Origin: Vibrio cyclitrophicus
GTDB taxonomy: Bacteria; Pseudomonadota; Gammaproteobacteria; Enterobacterales; Vibrionaceae
Assembly: GCF_024347435.1 (NCBI RefSeq)
Contig: NZ_AP025481.1
Span: 1,488,001-1,552,000, forward strand
Length of the DNA: 64,000 nucleotides
Direction: 5' to 3'
Below, one piece after another: positions 36,332-46,432 of the stretch. The notes beneath the pieces are model-generated. The model was not told the DNA's origin. It saw nothing but the letters and a program-made list of their open reading frames with translations, and searched no databases. How positions within the stretch are numbered: position 1 is the stretch's first letter; every line of letters begins with the position of its first letter. Made by a program: the position numbers and the translations under genes.

Positions 36332-36346
36332 TTTTACAATGTAAAT
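36332..36346. repeat. parS2 centromere-like site at the putP stop codon
   Basis: TTTTACAATGTAAAT matches NTTTACANTGTAAAN at all fixed positions. It ends at the first base of the putP stop region, so ParB binding there touches the 3' end of putP. It is 323 bases from the neighbouring site at 35995. Confidence 0.75.
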
Positions 36347-37839
36347 TAGTCTAGTTCTACCAGATTCTTCTCGAACTCAGCGTGTTGCTTCTTCACTTCG
36401 TCTTCTGGCTCACCCGTAATTAGGCTCACGATAACGATAGAAAGAGTCGATAGGATGATTCCTGGTACGATTTCGTACACATCGAACCAACCGCCCGTGA
36501 ACTGTTTCCAAAGTACGATAGTCACACCACCAACCACGATACCCGCTAGAGCGCCGTTACGGTTCATGCGAGACCAGTACAGGCTCAATACGATAGCTGG
36601 GCCAAATGCTGCACCAAAACCAGCCCATGCGTAAGACACAAGGCCAAGTACTGAACTGTCTGGCGTCATCGCTAGCACAAGTGCAATAAGAGAGATCAGG
36701 ATAACCGCGAAACGGCCTACACGAACAATCTCTTCTGACGTAGCATCTTTCTTCAGAACTTGCTTGTACAGATCTTCTGCCATTGCAGATGAAGAAACAA
36801 GAAGTTGTGAATCAGCAGTACTCATGATTGCCGCTAATATTGCAGCCAGTAGGATACCTGCGATTACTGGGTGGAACATCGCATTTACAAGAAGCATGAA
36901 GATCTTCTCGCCATCGTCTAGCTTAGGTGCGCCAGAGTTAGTCACATAGATCAGACCAACAAGACCCACAAGCATTGCACCAACCATAGACAGCGCAGTC
37001 CAGATAACCGCAATGCGACGCGCTGTTGTTAGATCTTTATTGCTACGTGTTGCTTTGAAACGAGCAAGGATGTGTGGCTGACCGAAGTAACCTAGACCCC
37101 ATGCCGCTAGCGAGATGATCGCGATTGCAGAAAGAGGCTCGCCCTTCGCATCATTCCATAACGTGAGTAGCTCTGGGTTGATGTTGTGTAGGTCGCTAGA
37201 TAACTGACCAAGGCCGCCATTCATTGCTGCGATGGGTACAATCAATAGTGCAGCAGACATTAGCAAGCCTTGAACTAGGTCAGTCCAAGATACCGCTAGG
37301 AAGCCACCAAACAGGGTGTACGAAACCACACATACCGTGCCGATAATTACCGCTGTTGTGTAATCTAGGCCGAATACCGTTTCAAATAATTTACCACCTG
37401 CTACCAAGCCTGAACTTGTGTAGAAAAGGAAGAATAAAAGGATAAAGAAAGCAGAGATTGTTTGAATCAGCTTAGAGTTATCGTTGAAGCGGCGAGATAA
37501 AAACTCAGGCAACGTCAGCGACTCTGTTGTAATACTGTAAGTGCGTAGACGTTTAGCACTGATTAACCAGTTTGCCCAAGTACCCACAAGTAGGCCACCA
37601 GCAAGCCAAAACGCTTCAAAACCAGCAGCATAAGCGTAACCAGGCAAGCCAAGTAGCAACCAACCACTCATGTCTGATGCACCCGCAGAAAGTGCAGCAG
37701 GCCATGGGCCTAACGAACGACCACCTAGGAAGTAGTCAGTTGAGTTAGATGTACGTTTGTAAGCAATAACACCGATCGCTAGCATCATAATTAGATACGC
37801 AATGAACGTCGTCGTTATTGCAAAACTGTTTTCTATCAT
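36346..37839 (-). CDS. putP: Sodium/proline symporter
   Basis: A 497-residue SSS-family transporter with about 13 membrane helices. Family stretches are TDYFLGGRSLGPWPAALSAGASDMSGWLLLGLPGYAYA near the N-terminus, and LAAILAAIMSTADSQLLVSSSAMAEDLY in helix 9. The ATG at 37839 (MIENSFAITT) has a GAGGA ribosome site; the longer frame to 37893 is not needed. It imports proline with sodium for use by PutA. It is 151 bases downstream of the PutA C-terminal-domain gene on the same strand, so the order is putA, domain gene, putP. Confidence 0.95.
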   Translation of the reverse strand: MIENSFAITTTFIAYLIMMLAIGVIAYKRTSNSTDYFLGGRSLGPWPAALSAGASDMSGWLLLGLPGYAYAAGFEAFWLAGGLLVGTWANWLISAKRLRTYSITTESLTLPEFLSRRFNDNSKLIQTISAFFILLFFLFYTSSGLVAGGKLFETVFGLDYTTAVIIGTVCVVSYTLFGGFLAVSWTDLVQGLLMSAALLIVPIAAMNGGLGQLSSDLHNINPELLTLWNDAKGEPLSAIAIISLAAWGLGYFGQPHILARFKATRSNKDLTTARRIAVIWTALSMVGAMLVGLVGLIYVTNSGAPKLDDGEKIFMLLVNAMFHPVIAGILLAAILAAIMSTADSQLLVSSSAMAEDLYKQVLKKDATSEEIVRVGRFAVILISLIALVLAMTPDSSVLGLVSYAWAGFGAAFGPAIVLSLYWSRMNRNGALAGIVVGGVTIVLWKQFTGGWFDVYEIVPGIILSTLSIVIVSLITGEPEDEVKKQHAEFEKNLVELD

Positions 37840-37990
37840 TTGATAGTCCTCATTTTGTAGAAAGCCTTCCATGCCTAATTCAATGCAAGACACTCACCGT
37901 AAAGGCGAGCGAGTGCATTGAGTTAGGTATTGAGGCTCCAAAGCACTCATGGAGAAAACCAAAAGTCCTTAGAGCCAATTTTACTGAAGG

Positions 37991-38695
37991 TTAGTGAGCT
38001 TCGCTTCCAAGTTCGAGCAAGGTCGCGTTACCGCCCACAGCTGTTATATTTATAGTTCGCGTACGCTCGGTAATGAAGCGCAGCGATAGGTGTGGATCGT
38101 TAGCAACATTCATTGCATTCAGATCCGTTTCAGCGACTAAACCGACGATGGCACCGTCACGCTTAGCAAGCTGTAAATTAATAGCTTGTGCCGTTTGTGA
38201 GTTACCGACATAACCCACACTTCGTACATCGCAAGACAACAACTGTTGAGAAGCGTCATACGAGGCAACCTGCACCAAGTTAGTTGGCAAATTAGCCGAC
38301 TTAGCTGCATCGGCAACTAAGGTATTAAACTGCACATCATCACTACACAATTGAACGCTGTTACCTGCTAATAGTGCAGCAGTAATCAGAGCCATTGCCG
38401 TTTGTAGTGCTGGCAGTTTGTCTTGGCAATCATCAACAATTACCAAAGCCACACCACGACCTGCAGCATACAACTCATTGGTTTCGCCCGTTGGGCCTGC
38501 CATAAGGTGATGCTCCGCAAGTAGTGCTGACGCTTGTTCTAGATGATAAGTCGCCACTGCAGCCAAAGGCGCAGATTGACTTTCAATCTCTGATTTCAAT
38601 GCAAGTACCTGAGCACTCTTATAATCAAAATCGGTCAGATTCCATTGTTCCCACGCAAACAATGCATCAGAAAAACCTGTCACTTGATGAACCAT
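37991..38695 (-). CDS. Free-standing PutA C-terminal (ALDH-superfamily-like) domain
   Basis: A 234-residue protein. GPTGETNELYAAGRGVALVI (about residues 67-86) and the C-terminal ERTRTINITAVGGNATLLEL closely resemble the C-terminal domain of long (type B/C) PutA proteins, in which GPTGE-N-L-PRGR and ERT-IN-A-GGNA-L are conserved. In those proteins this non-catalytic ALDH-fold domain caps the P5C dehydrogenase active site and its last strand reaches across. Here it is a separate gene. Its ribosome site (AAGGAGC) overlaps the putA stop and its ATG is 11 bases further, so translation is coupled. It should dock on the 1045-residue PutA in trans. It lacks ALDH catalytic residues. Confidence 0.85.
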   Translation of the reverse strand: MVHQVTGFSDALFAWEQWNLTDFDYKSAQVLALKSEIESQSAPLAAVATYHLEQASALLAEHHLMAGPTGETNELYAAGRGVALVIVDDCQDKLPALQTAMALITAALLAGNSVQLCSDDVQFNTLVADAAKSANLPTNLVQVASYDASQQLLSCDVRSVGYVGNSQTAQAINLQLAKRDGAIVGLVAETDLNAMNVANDPHLSLRFITERTRTINITAVGGNATLLELGSEAH

Positions 38696-38706
38696 GATAC
38701 TGCTCC

Positions 38707-41700
38707 TTATGCCTTGTCTTGTGATTGCGAAAAATGAACATCAGTAAAGCGATATAGGTAGTGAGGACCACCTGCTTTAGGGCCTGTACCTGACAAACCT
38801 TGACCGCCAAATGGTTGAACACCAACAACAGCACCTACTTGGTCACGGTTTATGTAGCAGTTACCCACGCGCACGTGTTTTTCGATCCAACGGTAAGTTG
38901 TCTCGTTACGGCTGTGAATACCCATAGTTAAGCCAAAACCGGTTTGGTTAATTTGGTCTACCACTTGCGCTAACTCACTCGCCTTGAAGCGAACGATGTG
39001 CAGTACAGGGCCAAACTGTTCTTCTTTCAAGCAACTGATGTCATCGATTTCAAACGCACTTGGTGGAACAAAGTCACCATGTTCACAATCAGAACCCAAT
39101 GTAAGTTGAGCGACTTTTTTCTGTGTTTGGGTCATATTTTTCAAGTGAGCTAACAGCTTTTGCTTCGCTGTTTGATCGATAACCGGACCAACATCCGTTT
39201 TATGAAGGTATGGAATACCAACACTCAGTTCGTCCATTGCACCGTGAATCAATCCAACCACGCGGTCTGCGATGTCTTCCTGAATGTAAAGCACACGCAA
39301 TGCCGAACAACGCTGACCTGCTGAAGCAAATGCCGAACGAATCACATCACGAACCACCTGTTCAGGCAGTGCGGTACTGTCGACGATCATCGCGTTCTGG
39401 CCGCCAGTTTCTGCGATAAATGGAACAGGTTTAGCGTTACGGCTTGCCAATGACACATTGATACGTTGTGCAGTTGGGGTTGAACCCGTAAAAGCAACAC
39501 CCGCAATTGCATCATGGCTAGTTAGCGCGCTGCCAATCTCAGCACCACGACCTGGAAGTAACTGAATGGTGCCGGCAGGGAAACCCGCTTCGTTCATCAG
39601 TTCAACGGCGCGAGCTGCAATCAAGCTTGTTTGCTCAGCAGGTTTCGCCACAACAGTGTTACCCGCGACTAGTGCCGCTGTAATTTGGCCAAGGAAGATA
39701 GCGAGAGGAAAGTTCCAAGGGCTGATACAAACGAACACACCACGACCTTGTCGTGAAGCGATTCGTGTTTGGCCGTCAAAACCTTTTAGTTCGAAACCTT
39801 GTAGGTTGTCAGCTTGTTTTGCGTAGTAACGACAGAAGTCGACTGCTTCACGTACTTCATCAACGCTATCGTGAATCGTCTTACCCGCTTCTTGATGACA
39901 AATCGCCACCAACTCAGCAAGGTTGTCTTCCATCAGGTCAGCCAGCTTCTCAAGCGCAGCCGCTTTGGTTTCAACCGAAGTTGCGTTCCAATCAGCGAAT
40001 ACTGCGTCTGCGCCGGTGATCGCTGCGGAAACATGATCAAGGTTAGCGAAAGCCACCTGACCCACATTAATACGACGATCGTAAGGTGAGGTTACTTGCT
40101 CGACGTTCTGATCAGCCTTGATCATGCTTTCGGCTAGAGACTCACCATTGATCACAGGGCCAGCAGTCCATTGATTGTTAAGGAATGTTTTAACCTGTGC
40201 TTCAAACTGATGAGCTTCACTTTCGATATCAATGTTCACACCGTAAGAGTTCTTACGCTCAGGGAATACCGCTGGAGGCAGAGGAATCTTAGTGTTGTTC
40301 AGCGTATCAAACGCCAGAAGCATATCGACCGGGTGTTGTGTTAGCTCTGCCACAGGGCAGCGAGCATCAACCAAACGGTGTACAAACGAGCTGTTTGCGC
40401 CGTTCTCTAGCAAGCGACGTACTAGGTATGGCAGCAGATCTTTGTGGCTGCCAACCGGTGCGTAGATACGTACCGACTGTTGGTAAGCTTCCATCGCATG
40501 GTTATAAAGAGAATCACCCATGCCGTGTAAGCGTTGGAATTCAAAATCTTTATGTTCAGTCATCACTGCAATTGCAGAAACCGTATGAGCATTGTGGCTC
40601 GCAAACTGCGGGAAGATATTGCCACGAACACTTGGGCTCAGTAGGTAACGTGCACATGCAAGGTAAGCTACATCTGTCGCTTCTTTGCGTGTGTAAACTG
40701 GGTAATCAGTAAAGCCAGCTTGCTGTGACCATTTGATTTCGCTGTCCCAGTACGCGCCTTTCACTAAGCGAAGCGGGATTAAATCACCCTGCTCTTTCGC
40801 CAAGCGGTTTAGCCATACTAGAACCGGTAGTGCGCGCTTTGAGTAAGCTTGAATAACCAGACCAAATTTACCCCAACCTTTTACAAGATCGGTACGGTAC
40901 AGTTTTTCGAATAATTTTAGAGAAAGCTCTAGGCGATCCGCTTCTTCAGCATCAATCGTAATCGCAACATCAAGCTCTACTGCTCGGCGCAATAACTGCT
41001 CTAGCGTGTCGCAAAGTTCTGTCAGTACGCGGTCTTCGTTCGCTACTTCATAACGTGGGTGAAGTGCGGAAAGCTTGATAGAAACAGACGGTGCTGGGCT
41101 CGATTTTGAAGAGACGTATGTGTCTCTACCTACGGCTTCAATCGCCATTAGGTAATCTTTGAAGTATTTGTTTGCGTCTGCAGTAGTCAGTGCTGCTTCA
41201 CCTAGCATGTCGTATGAGTAGGTAAAACCTTTGTCACGCATAGACTTACCGTTCTTTTGCGCTTCAGCAATGCTGCGGCCAAGAACGAATTGGTGACCCA
41301 TCACCTTCATTGCTTGGTGCATCGCTTTACGAATTACCGGCTCAGAAAGCTTATTCACTAAACGGTTAACCGCTTGACCAGCACTCTGCTCTTTAGATGA
41401 AAGTCCAACCACCTTACCCGTTAGCATTAGGCCCCAAGTGGATGCGTTAACAAACACTGAATCAGAATTCTTAAGGTGAGACTTCCAATCCGCAACGCTT
41501 AGTTTGTCGCGAATCAGCGCATCAGCAGTAGCTGAATCAGGAATACGCATTAAGGCTTCCGCCAGACACATCAGCAAGATGCCCTCTTGAGTATCTAAGC
41601 TGTATTCAAGCAACAGTGCATCGATCATCTGGATAGAAGTCTTATCCGCACGGATAGCTTCGATCAATGAGGTCGTTTTCTCTGTAATTTGCTGCTTTTC

Positions 41701-41844
41701 AGACTCAGAAGGGGTAGCTAGCGGCAGAAGTTGCTCTAGCCATTGGGTTTCATCCACCATATATAATGGTGAGATAAGCGACCATAGATCAGTAAGCGAC
41801 TGCTCATTGAATTCTGGCTTTAACACATCAGTAGCTGTAAACAT
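38707..41844 (-). CDS. putA: Bifunctional proline dehydrogenase/P5C dehydrogenase
   Basis: A 1045-residue enzyme that oxidises proline to glutamate in two steps. The N-terminal half is the FAD proline dehydrogenase barrel (SIKLSALHPRYE, then RLVKGAYWDSEIKWSQ). The C-terminal half is the ALDH domain (ISPWNFPLAIF, GSTPTAQ, catalytic Glu in FIAETGGQNAM, Cys in SAGQRCSALR). It ends at FGGQGLSGTGPKAGGPHYLYRF with no C-terminal extension, and there is no N-terminal ribbon-helix-helix, so it cannot be a self-repressing PutA. The extension is encoded by the next gene. Regulation is probably by the AraC-type protein upstream. Confidence 0.95.
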   Translation of the reverse strand: MFTATDVLKPEFNEQSLTDLWSLISPLYMVDETQWLEQLLPLATPSESEKQQITEKTTSLIEAIRADKTSIQMIDALLLEYSLDTQEGILLMCLAEALMRIPDSATADALIRDKLSVADWKSHLKNSDSVFVNASTWGLMLTGKVVGLSSKEQSAGQAVNRLVNKLSEPVIRKAMHQAMKVMGHQFVLGRSIAEAQKNGKSMRDKGFTYSYDMLGEAALTTADANKYFKDYLMAIEAVGRDTYVSSKSSPAPSVSIKLSALHPRYEVANEDRVLTELCDTLEQLLRRAVELDVAITIDAEEADRLELSLKLFEKLYRTDLVKGWGKFGLVIQAYSKRALPVLVWLNRLAKEQGDLIPLRLVKGAYWDSEIKWSQQAGFTDYPVYTRKEATDVAYLACARYLLSPSVRGNIFPQFASHNAHTVSAIAVMTEHKDFEFQRLHGMGDSLYNHAMEAYQQSVRIYAPVGSHKDLLPYLVRRLLENGANSSFVHRLVDARCPVAELTQHPVDMLLAFDTLNNTKIPLPPAVFPERKNSYGVNIDIESEAHQFEAQVKTFLNNQWTAGPVINGESLAESMIKADQNVEQVTSPYDRRINVGQVAFANLDHVSAAITGADAVFADWNATSVETKAAALEKLADLMEDNLAELVAICHQEAGKTIHDSVDEVREAVDFCRYYAKQADNLQGFELKGFDGQTRIASRQGRGVFVCISPWNFPLAIFLGQITAALVAGNTVVAKPAEQTSLIAARAVELMNEAGFPAGTIQLLPGRGAEIGSALTSHDAIAGVAFTGSTPTAQRINVSLASRNAKPVPFIAETGGQNAMIVDSTALPEQVVRDVIRSAFASAGQRCSALRVLYIQEDIADRVVGLIHGAMDELSVGIPYLHKTDVGPVIDQTAKQKLLAHLKNMTQTQKKVAQLTLGSDCEHGDFVPPSAFEIDDISCLKEEQFGPVLHIVRFKASELAQVVDQINQTGFGLTMGIHSRNETTYRWIEKHVRVGNCYINRDQVGAVVGVQPFGGQGLSGTGPKAGGPHYLYRFTDVHFSQSQDKA

Positions 41845-41930: not shown

Positions 41931-41953
41931 AAAAACTCCGAGTTTTTTGCTAA
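41931..41953. promoter_or_regulatory. Possible operator upstream of putA
   Basis: AAAAACT-CCG-AGTTTTT (41931-41947) is a perfect palindrome around CCG, lying 87-103 bases upstream of the putA start; a third AAAAACT follows at 41952-41958. It lies in the 181-base spacer between putA and the AraC-type gene. It may be an activator site or a hairpin; function is inferred only from place and symmetry. Confidence 0.4.
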
Positions 41954-42025
41954 AAACTCGCTTTATTAACAAAACAAACACAACGTCACATATGAAACTT
42001 TAAAATAATATGCCGTTTTGTTTCA

Positions 42026-42850
42026 CTATTTAACAGAAATTTTCTTTTTGTATTGAGATGGTGACATGCCTTGAAGGCGTGAAAAGGTATGAGTAAAGGA
42101 AGATTGACCGGAGAAACCAGCCAGTTCAGCGACCTGACCAAGGCTAAGGTTACCTTGTTCGATTAAACGACGAGATCGGTCTATACGCTTACCTAACACA
42201 TACTGATGTGGGGTGATTCCCATTTGATCTTTGAATAGCATGTGGAACTGGCTTTCACCCAGGAACACACTGCCTGCAAGTTGGGCCACAGAGATCTTGT
42301 TCGCAAGGTGTTGCTCGATGTAACGATCCAATGCTTCAAGATCAAAACGCGAGTCTTTAATCGGAGTTTCGAATGCGGATATATGCCTTTGCATCAACGC
42401 GATCACCGTGTCATTACATGCTCGACTCAGTAACAAATCATCAGGGCTCGACTGCATTTCTTGCACCAACATATGGATAAGCTTTTGAATTTGCGCGTCT
42501 AATTGAAAGTATACGTTCGATGACTCTAGCTGGTTAATCTTCTCTAACATTAGAGGGTCATCATCGGTTGGCACAGGCATATTGAGTACGAGAATATCCG
42601 ACTGACCAACCACGCCACCGAAAGCATGATCAGAGCTCGCCGTTACCACACAACCTTGACCGGGACCAACCAAATTCCCTTTACCTCTGACTTCAAACTC
42701 CGCCTGACCTTTTAAGCCAATCACCACCTGCGAATAATGATGCTCGTGGCAATCCATATGCGATGGCAAAGTGATGATCTCAGCCGGGCGAGGGCCCGTA
42801 AGACCTAGCGGGGACAGGTCTAGGTTTGGAAAGGGTAAAGGTTTTGGCAT
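42026..42850 (-). CDS. AraC-family regulator with cupin domain (probable put activator)
   Basis: A 274-residue regulator. The N-terminal half is a cupin-like ligand domain (ITLPSHMDCHEHHYSQVVIGLKGQAEFEV). The C-terminal half has two helix-turn-helix units (ISVAQLAGSVFLGESQFHMLFKDQ and LGQVAELAGFSGQSSFTHTFSRLQGMSPSQY). Its place directly upstream of putA in the same direction makes it the likely proline-responsive regulator of the put genes, since PutA itself lacks a DNA-binding domain. The ligand is not proved. The region upstream of its start holds the GATC-rich cluster at 42919-43005. Confidence 0.9.
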   Translation of the reverse strand: MPKPLPFPNLDLSPLGLTGPRPAEIITLPSHMDCHEHHYSQVVIGLKGQAEFEVRGKGNLVGPGQGCVVTASSDHAFGGVVGQSDILVLNMPVPTDDDPLMLEKINQLESSNVYFQLDAQIQKLIHMLVQEMQSSPDDLLLSRACNDTVIALMQRHISAFETPIKDSRFDLEALDRYIEQHLANKISVAQLAGSVFLGESQFHMLFKDQMGITPHQYVLGKRIDRSRRLIEQGNLSLGQVAELAGFSGQSSFTHTFSRLQGMSPSQYKKKISVK

Positions 42851-43005: not shown

Positions 43006-43331
43006 TGTACAAACTACGGTCATTGTAAAACCAATCGTTCCGGCGGCTTCAGTACTTAAAAGCGAGCAAGTGCAACAAGGTGCAATGTATACCTAAAATA
43101 GATGTATTTTCACCACATATAGAAATAATTTTCTTATATAGCTCAAATAATTTAGCTTTAACTTGTAAAAAGTGTATCCGAAGTAGCGAAACTCGGCTTT
43201 TGAGTAGATTGGGTGACGATAAAACGGTATAAAGACGGGTACTGTGTTAATTGCTAATAACTAGTGACTCACAACTAGGAAGTAGACACTTTATTAACGA
43301 GCCAATTTCAATCTATAAGTTGCAGGGACCT

Positions 43332-44435
43332 ATGACTAACTTTCGAATTTCAGCGCTTTTACTTGCGCTATCCCCACTTTGGGTATCTGCATCGGTATCC
43401 GCTGAAGAACTGAATCAAGTCGATCCCGTTTCAGCTATCGATGCAAAGCTAACAGAGAAAAACTCAGATATTGAGCGTATTTCAGCAACCCAGGTATCAG
43501 CGACTGAAAACCTAAAACAACTACAGAACCAAAACAGTAAGTTGTTGCGCGAAGGTGAAGAACTCAAGGCAAAACGTAACAGAGCCAAGTCTGTACTCGA
43601 CAAACAGTACAGTCGCTTACTGGAAGATCCAGAAACTGATTTGGTCTCTTTTCAGAAAAGCTACCAAGATGCTTGGGCGGCCGTTAAAGAGAACCAATCG
43701 TCTCAGTTAGACAACCAACAAGCGATAAACGAGAGTGAAATTCACCTTTCTCAAATCAAGCAAAAGCAAGCTCGCCTGAACAATGAGCTGGCTAACTTAA
43801 GAGAATCAAAAGTTGAAGCTCGCGTAAAACGTATTGCAACAGAACTCCGTGAAAGTGCCGTTCTTGAGACCAGCTACACCACGACATGTGCATCAACAAT
43901 GACACTGGGAGAGTGTACTGCTCAAGGCAAGTACTTGACCAATCAAAAAGCCGTGCAAACGTTCAAAAGCCAATTACTTGAGCAGCTCACAGAAAGCGCG
44001 CTAGCGAAGCAAAACTTACAAGGTGTTCAGCTGAATATCCATGTTCAAGACAGCCAAGCAATCAAGAGTGGTTTCTCTGGTAACAACGCTTACTTCGTGC
44101 AAATGCAGGCTCAGCTTCAAGCAAAACCGGAAGCGGTAGCAGCGTGTAATTTATTGAACGTTTCAACACGCTACTGTTTAAAGGGCAGTGATGTTGCCGT
44201 GGCTAAAAAGAGTGATAAACAGTGGGCAAACGTGATGGTACGTTCTGATCAGTACAATGATTCAGTGACGATCAACGGCATTAAGTACGGCAGCACACCG
44301 ATTGAGGTTGCACTCCCAAGCGGTCGTCACCAAGTGACTATTTCAAAACAAGGTTACGAGTCTTACAACCGCACAGTTACCATCAACGGTAGCGACACTA
44401 TTTGGGTTAAGCTTCTTCCTAGCAAGGAAAGCTAA
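43332..44435 (+). CDS. Exported coiled-coil protein with C-terminal PEGA domain
   Basis: A 367-residue protein. The ATG at 43332 starts a signal peptide (MTNFRISALLLALSPLWVSASVSA) and has an AGGGA ribosome site; an upstream ATG at 43251 gives an unlikely extension. The middle (about 30-190) is a long heptad-type helix rich in Gln, Lys and Leu. A Cys pair-containing segment follows (TTCASTMTLGECTAQ). The C-terminal 70 residues form a PEGA domain (VTINGIKYGSTPIEVALPSGRHQVTISKQGYESY). It is a paralogue of the next gene, which repeats this layout and adds an FGE-like domain. It likely binds the cell wall or envelope; the role is unknown. Confidence 0.85.
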   Translation: MTNFRISALLLALSPLWVSASVSAEELNQVDPVSAIDAKLTEKNSDIERISATQVSATENLKQLQNQNSKLLREGEELKAKRNRAKSVLDKQYSRLLEDPETDLVSFQKSYQDAWAAVKENQSSQLDNQQAINESEIHLSQIKQKQARLNNELANLRESKVEARVKRIATELRESAVLETSYTTTCASTMTLGECTAQGKYLTNQKAVQTFKSQLLEQLTESALAKQNLQGVQLNIHVQDSQAIKSGFSGNNAYFVQMQAQLQAKPEAVAACNLLNVSTRYCLKGSDVAVAKKSDKQWANVMVRSDQYNDSVTINGIKYGSTPIEVALPSGRHQVTISKQGYESYNRTVTINGSDTIWVKLLPSKES

Positions 44436-44602: not shown

Positions 44603-46432
44603 ATGCGCCAAGGTTTTCCCACTCTATTATTTGCACTTGCCCCTTGCTTAATGACACCTGCTGTTTTCGCTGAAATAACACCACCAGCAATCACAACATC
44701 TGTCACCGACATTGAAAGCTCACTCTTCGAAAAGTATACCACTTTAACGGCTGTCGAGAAGAAGCTGACGGACAAACAAAACCAAGTCGATAACCAAGCA
44801 AAGCAAACGGCAAATCTAGCCAAGTTATCCACTCAAGCTGAGCAAAAACTCGCAGCAGCGAAAGCTAGTCTAGAACAAGATTACACCCGCATGATTGACG
44901 AGCCTGACTTCGACATCTCGCCGGCTCAAAACAGTTTCCAAAACGCTTGGAAAACTGTAAAAGAGAGCAAGCTTGCTATTTCAGACTCAGAACAGAAGCA
45001 ACAAGGCTTGGTGATGGAACTAGAAGCCATCCAAGCAGAAAAAGCGGCTGCTGAAGCTTCAATCGCAAACCTCAATCAAGATAAACTCAGAGCAAGAGCT
45101 GAACGACTAAGAAACGAGATCACTCAAACCAAAGAGCAAACGGTCAGCTTTACCAACCGTTGTAGCAGTGACATGACACTCGCGCAATGTGCAGACCAAA
45201 CGGTGACCTTGGCACTTCAAAAAGCCGTTAAGCAATTCCAGCATAGCTTGGTAGACAACGCGACTGAATCAAAAACAGTGAAAGAGCACCTATCGTCTGC
45301 TTCGCTAAACATTCACGTTCTACAACACAAAGTGAAATCTTCTGGTTTCTCTGAAGATAGCCGTTACCGAGCAGTGATTGCAGCGAACTTAGAGACTCGC
45401 CCAGACAAAAACACACCTTGTCGCTTGCTTGGTATCCAGTCATCAAACTGTTTCACACAGAGCGATCAACAAGCCAATGACCAGCAAAAAGAAGTCGCTT
45501 GGGTTAACTTAATGGTTCGTTCAAACCAATATAATGACAAGGTATCGATTAACGGCGTGGACTATGGCAGCACACCGGTTGAAGTAATGCTACCAACAGG
45601 CCAACACATGGTCACAATTGAGAAAGAAGGCTACCTCTCTTTCCATCAAGAACTGAAAATCGCCCGTGATCACAACCTACGAGCGGTATTACAAGCCAAA
45701 CAAAACTCGCTGAATGTCGGTACCAAATTTGCCGACCCAATGGGAAATGACACTCCAAGTCCAGAAATGATTGTGGTGGGTTCAGGCCGTTATTTATTGG
45801 GTGAAAACAACGCTAAACAAGTGACGATCAAACAGCCATTTGCATTAGCAGCGACACCAACTCGCGTTCAAGATTTTAAAGCGTTTGTTGAAAGCACTGG
45901 CTACCAGACAGACGCAGAACTGATGAACACCTGCGATACCTTCGTTAATGCCGAGATCACAACGGTTTCAGACAATGACTGGCTGAACCCTGGCTTTAAG
46001 CAAGCTGATAACTCACCGGTAGTTTGTGTTAGTCAAAGTGATGCCAAAGCGTATACTCGCTGGTTATCTAAAAATACAGGCTATGCCTACCGTTTACCAA
46101 CACCACAAGAATGGGAAGCCGCAGCAAGAGCAGGCCAAGATACTAACTTCTGGTGGGGCAATGAATTCCTTTCGGGTAGAGCCAATACCGGTTGGGCTGG
46201 CACACCGTGGTCAAACATCAGCACCTCTCCAGTTAAGTCATTCTTACCAACACCTACAGGCTTCTACGATATGGTTGGCAACGTTTGGGAATGGACAACC
46301 GTTCAGAAAGGCTTGGCTAAAGGTGGTGCGTGGAGTTTTTCACCAGAAGAAGCAAAAGTGTTTAACGAACTGTACGTGCCAACGTCAACGGCAGCAAACT
46401 ACTTAGGTTTCAGAGTATTGCGCGAACTGTAG
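44603..46432 (+). CDS. Exported coiled-coil/PEGA protein with FGE/SUMF1-like domain
   Basis: A 609-residue protein with a signal peptide (about 1-23), a coiled-coil region (about 40-190), the same Cys-containing segment as its paralogue (NRCSSDMTLAQCADQ), and a PEGA domain (about 300-365). An FGE/SUMF1-type domain fills 386-609: MIVVGSGRYLLGE, YRLPTPQEWEAAARAG, GFYDMVGNVWEWT and GFRVLREL. Its last part has no Cys, whereas true formylglycine-generating enzymes use a C-terminal Cys pair, so it is probably a non-enzymatic scaffold or binding domain. It follows its paralogue by 167 bases on the same strand, and no sulfatase is nearby. Confidence 0.88.
   Translation: MRQGFPTLLFALAPCLMTPAVFAEITPPAITTSVTDIESSLFEKYTTLTAVEKKLTDKQNQVDNQAKQTANLAKLSTQAEQKLAAAKASLEQDYTRMIDEPDFDISPAQNSFQNAWKTVKESKLAISDSEQKQQGLVMELEAIQAEKAAAEASIANLNQDKLRARAERLRNEITQTKEQTVSFTNRCSSDMTLAQCADQTVTLALQKAVKQFQHSLVDNATESKTVKEHLSSASLNIHVLQHKVKSSGFSEDSRYRAVIAANLETRPDKNTPCRLLGIQSSNCFTQSDQQANDQQKEVAWVNLMVRSNQYNDKVSINGVDYGSTPVEVMLPTGQHMVTIEKEGYLSFHQELKIARDHNLRAVLQAKQNSLNVGTKFADPMGNDTPSPEMIVVGSGRYLLGENNAKQVTIKQPFALAATPTRVQDFKAFVESTGYQTDAELMNTCDTFVNAEITTVSDNDWLNPGFKQADNSPVVCVSQSDAKAYTRWLSKNTGYAYRLPTPQEWEAAARAGQDTNFWWGNEFLSGRANTGWAGTPWSNISTSPVKSFLPTPTGFYDMVGNVWEWTTVQKGLAKGGAWSFSPEEAKVFNELYVPTSTAANYLGFRVLREL

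Follow-up and report, generated by a model that had tools for sequence, protein, structure and literature searches.

We analyzed a 64,000-nucleotide stretch of the Vibrio cyclitrophicus genome (assembly GCF_024347435.1, contig NZ_AP025481.1, positions 1,488,001 to 1,552,000; hereafter, the window), and in particular a pair of genes encoding a bifunctional PutA of 1045 residues and, directly after it, a small protein of 234 residues. The host is a Vibrio of the splendidus group, and the order of transcription, all on the minus strand, is an AraC-family regulator, putA, the small gene and putP (Table 1). A first-pass annotation had pointed out the two adjacent genes and had proposed that the small one encodes the C-terminal module of PutA as a protein of its own. 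Both genes lie where they had been put, and the proposal, which was its main claim, is supported by the comparisons of sequences described below. That is, the locus appears to encode a PutA whose C-terminal module acts in trans, which is a new form of a known PutA architecture.

Table 1. Features of the putA locus, with positions counted from the first letter of the window (PRODH, proline dehydrogenase; P5C, delta-1-pyrroline-5-carboxylate; GSA, glutamate semialdehyde; P5CDH, P5C dehydrogenase; ALDH, aldehyde dehydrogenase).
Feature	Position	Strand	Basis
putA, bifunctional proline dehydrogenase / P5C (GSA) dehydrogenase, 1045 aa	38707-41844	minus	Open reading frame list and domain matches
PRODH domain of PutA, residues 195-490	40375-41262	minus	Pfam Pro_dh
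P5CDH/ALDH domain of PutA, residues 577-1036, with the GQRCS nucleophile segment	38737-40116	minus	Pfam Aldedh
Shine-Dalgarno sequence AAGGAG of the small gene	38703-38708	minus	Sequence; overlaps the putA stop TAA (38707-38709)
Small gene, putative 234-aa ALDH-like lid subunit, predicted catalytically dead	37991-38695	minus	Homology to the PutA C-terminal domain
Hairpin GPTGETNELYAAGRG, small-protein residues 67-81	38453-38497	minus	Invariant residues
C-terminal lid motif LRFITERTRTINITAVGGNATLLELG, small-protein residues 205-230	38006-38083	minus	Invariant residues
putP, sodium/proline symporter, directly after the small gene	36346-37893	minus	
AraC-family regulator upstream of putA	42026-42850	minus	

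The two genes are closely spaced. Only 11 nt separate the putA stop from the ATG of the small gene (TAA-GGAGCAGTATC-ATG), which sets the small gene out of frame with putA, and because of this short distance two bases of the AAGGAG of the small gene fall inside the putA stop codon, an overlap that the first-pass annotation had correctly noticed. A junction of the form TAAGGAGCA[G/T]TATCATG is conserved in 14 of 14 near relatives, and the small protein is 91-98% identical in 14 named relatives (V. splendidus, V. tasmaniensis, V. lentus and others). The putA, small and putP genes presumably share one transcript; a simple pattern found no sigma-70-like promoter between 37780 and 42100 (shuffled sequences gave 5.3 on average, with a standard deviation of 2.3) and a terminator scan gave five weak terminator-like sites, results that say nothing on operon structure. 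Lee reportedly described a putAP operon in V. vulnificus in 2003.

The PutA chain of the window contains both catalytic domains (Pfam Pro_dh and Aldedh) and scores 1627.6 bits against the PutA equivalog model PRK11904, for which the cut-off is 747. Its residues 21-1034 align to residues 34-1034 of the 1235-residue SmPutA (5kf6), and the chain ends 11 residues past this alignment, SmPutA having 201 residues more; hence, as had been claimed, PutA stops where the C-terminal domain would start. Types B and C are recognized by a C-terminal ALDH-like domain fused in the chain, which in the window is a separate open reading frame, and type A by a TGExN hairpin and a C-terminal GGN lid within the chain, neither of which is found in the window PutA. 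The four Pfam matches of this protein do not include a ribbon-helix-helix family.

The small protein is homologous to residues 1079-1235 of SmPutA (E value of 1.2e-25 for the chain in a profile comparison), and hhalign gave 99.5-100% against seven sets of fused C-terminal domains, so that the kinship with the C-terminal domains of long PutAs anticipated by the first-pass annotation came out positive. It is an ALDH Rossmann fragment without nicotinamide adenine dinucleotide (NAD)-site motifs and without a catalytic domain, i.e., the catalytic cysteine domain expected of a P5CDH is missing. Among 27 diverse members, the invariant residues are G70, E71, N73 and G81 in the hairpin and N216, A219, G221, G222, N223 and L226 in the lid; invariant positions fall in these two elements and not in the rest of the Rossmann part. 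The small gene is under purifying selection, with a ratio of nonsynonymous to synonymous substitution rates (dN/dS) of 0.06-0.10 in 14 comparisons; the corresponding values for putA, measurable in 12 of the 14 relatives, are 0.02-0.04 (12 comparisons). A model of the isolated small protein is least sure at residues 61-80 (predicted local distance difference test, pLDDT, of 61-65) and 210-234 (31-35), as expected if hairpin and lid are segments that become ordered on a partner.

Where hairpin and lid reside was compared across 101 loci, the window plus 100 fetched ones that were hand-picked across architectures, partly for having a match, and thus do not represent a random sample. Forty-two loci have two genes, 36 encode a type A PutA and 23 a fused one; one of the 42 (L071, from genome G001) has its putA in pieces and was omitted from the trees and from the motif counts, which accordingly cover 41 two-gene loci. 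Among the 78 PutAs that end no more than 60 residues from the PFGG motif, a terminal GGN is present in none of the 42 with an adjacent small gene and in 35 of the 36 without, the remaining one (L145) having GGD instead. Simple patterns for the hairpin (TGExN) and the lid (AxGGN) were applied to 100 loci. Both elements are absent from all 41 two-gene cores, the window's included, and both are present in all 41 small proteins; type A cores carry the hairpin in 35/36 cases (L099 fails) and the lid in 33/36 (L132, L145 and L146 fail). Fused cores have neither (0/23 for each), and their C-terminal domains have the hairpin in 20/23 (not L119, L120 and L149) and the lid in 21/23 (not L121 and L122). 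These simple patterns miss variants, GGN being present in 23/23 fused and 35/36 type A proteins. The counts indicate that, with few exceptions, hairpin and lid sit either in the PutA core or in the C-terminal ALDH-like module, a module that two-gene PutAs have as a separate protein. The first-pass annotation had read the two motifs as hallmarks of types B and C; they are indeed both in the small protein, but they are not peculiar to these types, given that type A cores carry them at the frequencies above. The ALDH nucleophile and NAD-site motifs are distributed as follows: the GQRCS nucleophile segment is found in 41/41 two-gene PutA cores vs. 0/41 small proteins, and KP[AS] of the NAD site in 40/41 cores and in 1/41 small proteins, KPA and FTGS not being retained in the latter. 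The 36 type A stretches that were fetched showed no small gene, some of the fetched loci having short downstream stretches of about 0.6 to 1.5 kb.

Two observations on the fused proteins stand on their own. The C-terminal domains of L119 and L120 have a GGN lid without the TGExN hairpin pattern, and L115 (G877, same phylum, outside the class) encodes a 1267-aa fused PutA whose C-terminal domain has the top score (157 bits) among fused domains against the stand-alone profile.

The small gene also co-occurs with putA across genomes. Among 121 genomes of the family, drawn evenly, the PRODH half of PutA was matched in 112 and the small protein in the same 112, the same nine genomes matching neither query, and the best small-protein match in each of the 112 is an open frame of its own of 211-307 aa (counted by eye). 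In the order sample (295 genomes), the PRODH half was matched in 223 genomes and the small protein in 204, the small-protein query also picking up type A cores and fused domains at this level. We re-examined all 20 order genomes that had a PRODH half and no small-protein match (matches listed, compared by eye): 17 have PutA frames of 1161-1398 aa, i.e., the length of a fused PutA, two have short frames (G276, 509 aa; G176, 511 aa, at a contig end) and that of G340 is interrupted, with frames of 228 and 969 aa. In none of the 20 does an intact PutA frame of about 1045 aa occur with the small gene missing. Among the matches listed for the order, G375 has a small-protein match alone. Within the window's family, the two-gene arrangement occurs throughout the PutA-bearing genomes sampled, and four more of the sampled families of the order (f2, f10, f12 and f13) have it as well. 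Outside the order, at least three stand-alone copies are among the matches listed (G785, G801 and G725), and a 188-aa frame lies close to the end of a contig in G808; the class search listed no stand-alone copy outside the order among its matches, and such copies may be more numerous than those listed. In addition, a second, divergent putA occurs in another family of the order (in G175 and G156, among the matches listed), and that of G175 (L090) adjoins its own small gene, which suggests that the two genes may be passed on together.

With respect to origin, the trees are unrooted and the core test used LG+G4 without mixture. A branch separates the two-gene cores from all others (support of 99 with 41 rows and 99/97 with 14 rows), and their nearest neighbor is the type A PutA L109 (99 and 100/99). 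Fission of a fused type B/C PutA was rejected for the core, both with the fused cores L087, L098, L105, L115 and L118 (approximately unbiased test, p-AU of 7.7e-6) and with all 11 fused cores of the 38-row tree (p-AU of 8.3e-6). The term "split PutA" used by the first-pass annotation holds in so far as the C-terminal module is a separate, adjoining and co-occurring gene; it is not to be taken to mean that a type B/C PutA underwent fission, given the grouping of the core with type A and the rejection of the fission tree. The module itself was placed in trees of 85 and 50 of 153 excised domain sequences. In the 50-row tree, a single branch sets apart every C-terminal domain (94/94, not starred), and a tree uniting the small proteins with nine NAD-binding parts of type A PutAs from the order was not rejected (p-AU of 0.254). 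The small proteins form one side of a branch in the 85-row tree (99/62), which has very long branches and in which the fused domain L119 falls among the NAD-binding parts of cores (97/83, starred; L120 was not included), a placement that speaks against a single origin of all such C-terminal domains. On these trees, the small protein may have originated either as a captured fused domain or as a partial duplicate of a type A P5CDH.

Compared with known systems, the small protein resembles the C-terminal domain of type B/C PutAs (SmPutA, RcPutA and EcPutA) in being a homologous, ALDH-like and non-catalytic module that carries the hairpin (mostly, in the fused proteins) and the GGN lid, with a core that has neither, and differs in being encoded as its own protein next to a core of type A kinship. 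Type A PutAs (BjPutA, 3haz, and relatives) are the nearest kin of the window core, and the small protein resembles the NAD-binding part and C-terminus of their P5CDH; unlike the window PutA, however, type A has hairpin and lid in a single chain. According to an excerpt of PMC10537722, proline oxidation also involves more than one polypeptide in Mycobacterium tuberculosis; there, PruB and PruA are each a whole catalyst, whereas here one chain has both active sites and the other has none.

In other PutAs, the C-terminal lid peptide covers part of the tunnel that takes P5C/GSA between the two active sites. For a two-gene PutA chain without a lid of its own, the most economical interpretation is a lid that comes from the small protein, docked on the P5CDH module. 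Hence, we consider it likely that the 234-aa protein is a non-catalytic subunit of a two-subunit PutA, providing tunnel lid and hairpin in trans. Under this hypothesis, putA, the small gene and putP would be translated successively, the lid subunit being made beside its partner; it would give PutA the two elements that the chain is missing (i.e., the TGExN hairpin and the C-terminal lid peptide), dock on the P5CDH module, close the tunnel and, once docked, support P5CDH activity and probably assembly too. Several observations weigh against this hypothesis. The PRODH half is fragmented in three of the 112 family genomes (G001, G013 and G081), and the PutA frame is only 730-930 aa long in three others (G048, G057 and G084), with the small-protein match still an open frame in all six. 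Low confidence at chain ends, as seen for the lid, is common in AlphaFold models. Further, the small protein alone retrieves the type A BjPutA and not the SmPutA C-terminal domain in a single-sequence PDB search, its best fold match is likewise BjPutA, and in NCBIfam it scores best against the P5CDH part of PRK11904 (70 bits). The 50 fold matches listed do not include the SmPutA C-terminal domain, an absence that does not argue against kinship.

Alternatively, the small protein may be associated with PutA and have regulation or localization as its main task (e.g., NAD/redox sensing, or contact with the membrane or PutP) as opposed to tunnel closure. The adjoining putP gene would fit such a role, and an excerpt of PMC5293562, which relays a result of Luo (2014) on the PutA C-terminal domain, suggests that this domain is required for functional switching of trifunctional PutAs. 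However, the small proteins conserve neither KPA nor FTGS of the NAD site, and what is invariant in them is the hairpin and the lid, not the remaining Rossmann part; we thus regard this alternative as unlikely. A functionless, decaying remnant (e.g., a truncated P5CDH) would account for the missing catalytic domain and for the fast divergence of the small proteins, which are 20-59% identical to that of the window (alignment A1), but is contradicted by the dN/dS values, by the presence of a match in every PutA-bearing genome of the family sample and by the invariant hairpin and lid residues; accordingly, we reject it as highly improbable.

Equally improbable, and rejected as well, is the hypothesis that a fused PutA is in fact made through a programmed frameshift or stop read-through. 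The genes do overlap or almost touch in many genomes, yet frame offsets of 0, 1 and 2 are all seen among 40 fetched two-gene junctions, and many junctions have a start codon with a Shine-Dalgarno-like sequence, or an ATGA/TAATG overlap; mixed offsets together with start signals fit coupled translation of two products and not a conserved recoding event. Finally, we give almost no credence to the small protein being an active, stand-alone P5CDH ("PutC"). Databases name its relatives "1-pyrroline-5-carboxylate dehydrogenase", and the available part of a V. campbellii paper (PMC3858670) has a PutC that is matched to the small gene by gene order, which bears out the warning in the first-pass annotation that the gene is easily misread as a truncated P5CDH. 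These names look wrong for a protein that lacks the catalytic domain and, in all members counted, the GQRCS segment. We thus favor the hypothesis of a lid subunit supplied in trans.

That part of PMC3858670 describes a V. campbellii operon, putB-putC-putP, next to pruR, with putB called proline dehydrogenase and putC delta-1-pyrroline-5-carboxylate dehydrogenase, and reports that putBCP is down-regulated in an hmgA mutant (array ratios of 2.39 for PutB, 1.71 for PutC and 2.59 for PutP). Based on gene order and on a stand-alone V. campbellii relative (P0011), these are presumably the same three genes; if so, the PutB of that excerpt would be the whole bifunctional PutA and its PutC the lid subunit, and the small gene is probably expressed in this relative. 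We infer that the AraC-family gene of the window is the orthologue of the pruR named there. A separate PutA lid subunit was not found described in the open-licence literature searched, which does not establish its absence from print.

As for the surroundings, a 9-bp inverted repeat with T-runs on both strands, terminator- or operator-like, lies between putA and the AraC-family gene (41939-41960). Farther away, two adjacent genes on the plus strand (43251-44435 and 44603-46432) encode related coiled-coil-like proteins with long common segments (translations compared by eye), the second with an additional C-terminal part; they look like a tandem duplication in which a domain was gained or lost.

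PutA serves as a model case for substrate channelling, and a C-terminal lid that is covalently fused is difficult to study by itself. If the hypothesis favored here is correct, the lid, as a separate protein, can be omitted, re-added, titrated or mutated with the catalytic chain untouched, and its effect on channelling, P5CDH activity and assembly would become directly measurable. It is possible, as a more tentative proposal that we would not yet favor, that the two-gene PutAs represent a separate kind beside types A, B and C, in which the lid and hairpin of a type A ancestor moved onto a dead ALDH paralogue in parallel to the fused domain of types B and C, and that the detachable lid makes for a switchable channel in Vibrionaceae, sealed with the small protein and leaky without it, e.g., under osmotic stress. 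In any case, if the small protein is a lid subunit, the Vibrio gene annotated as P5C dehydrogenase or PutC would encode a non-catalytic subunit, and its mutants and expression data would need to be re-read in this light.

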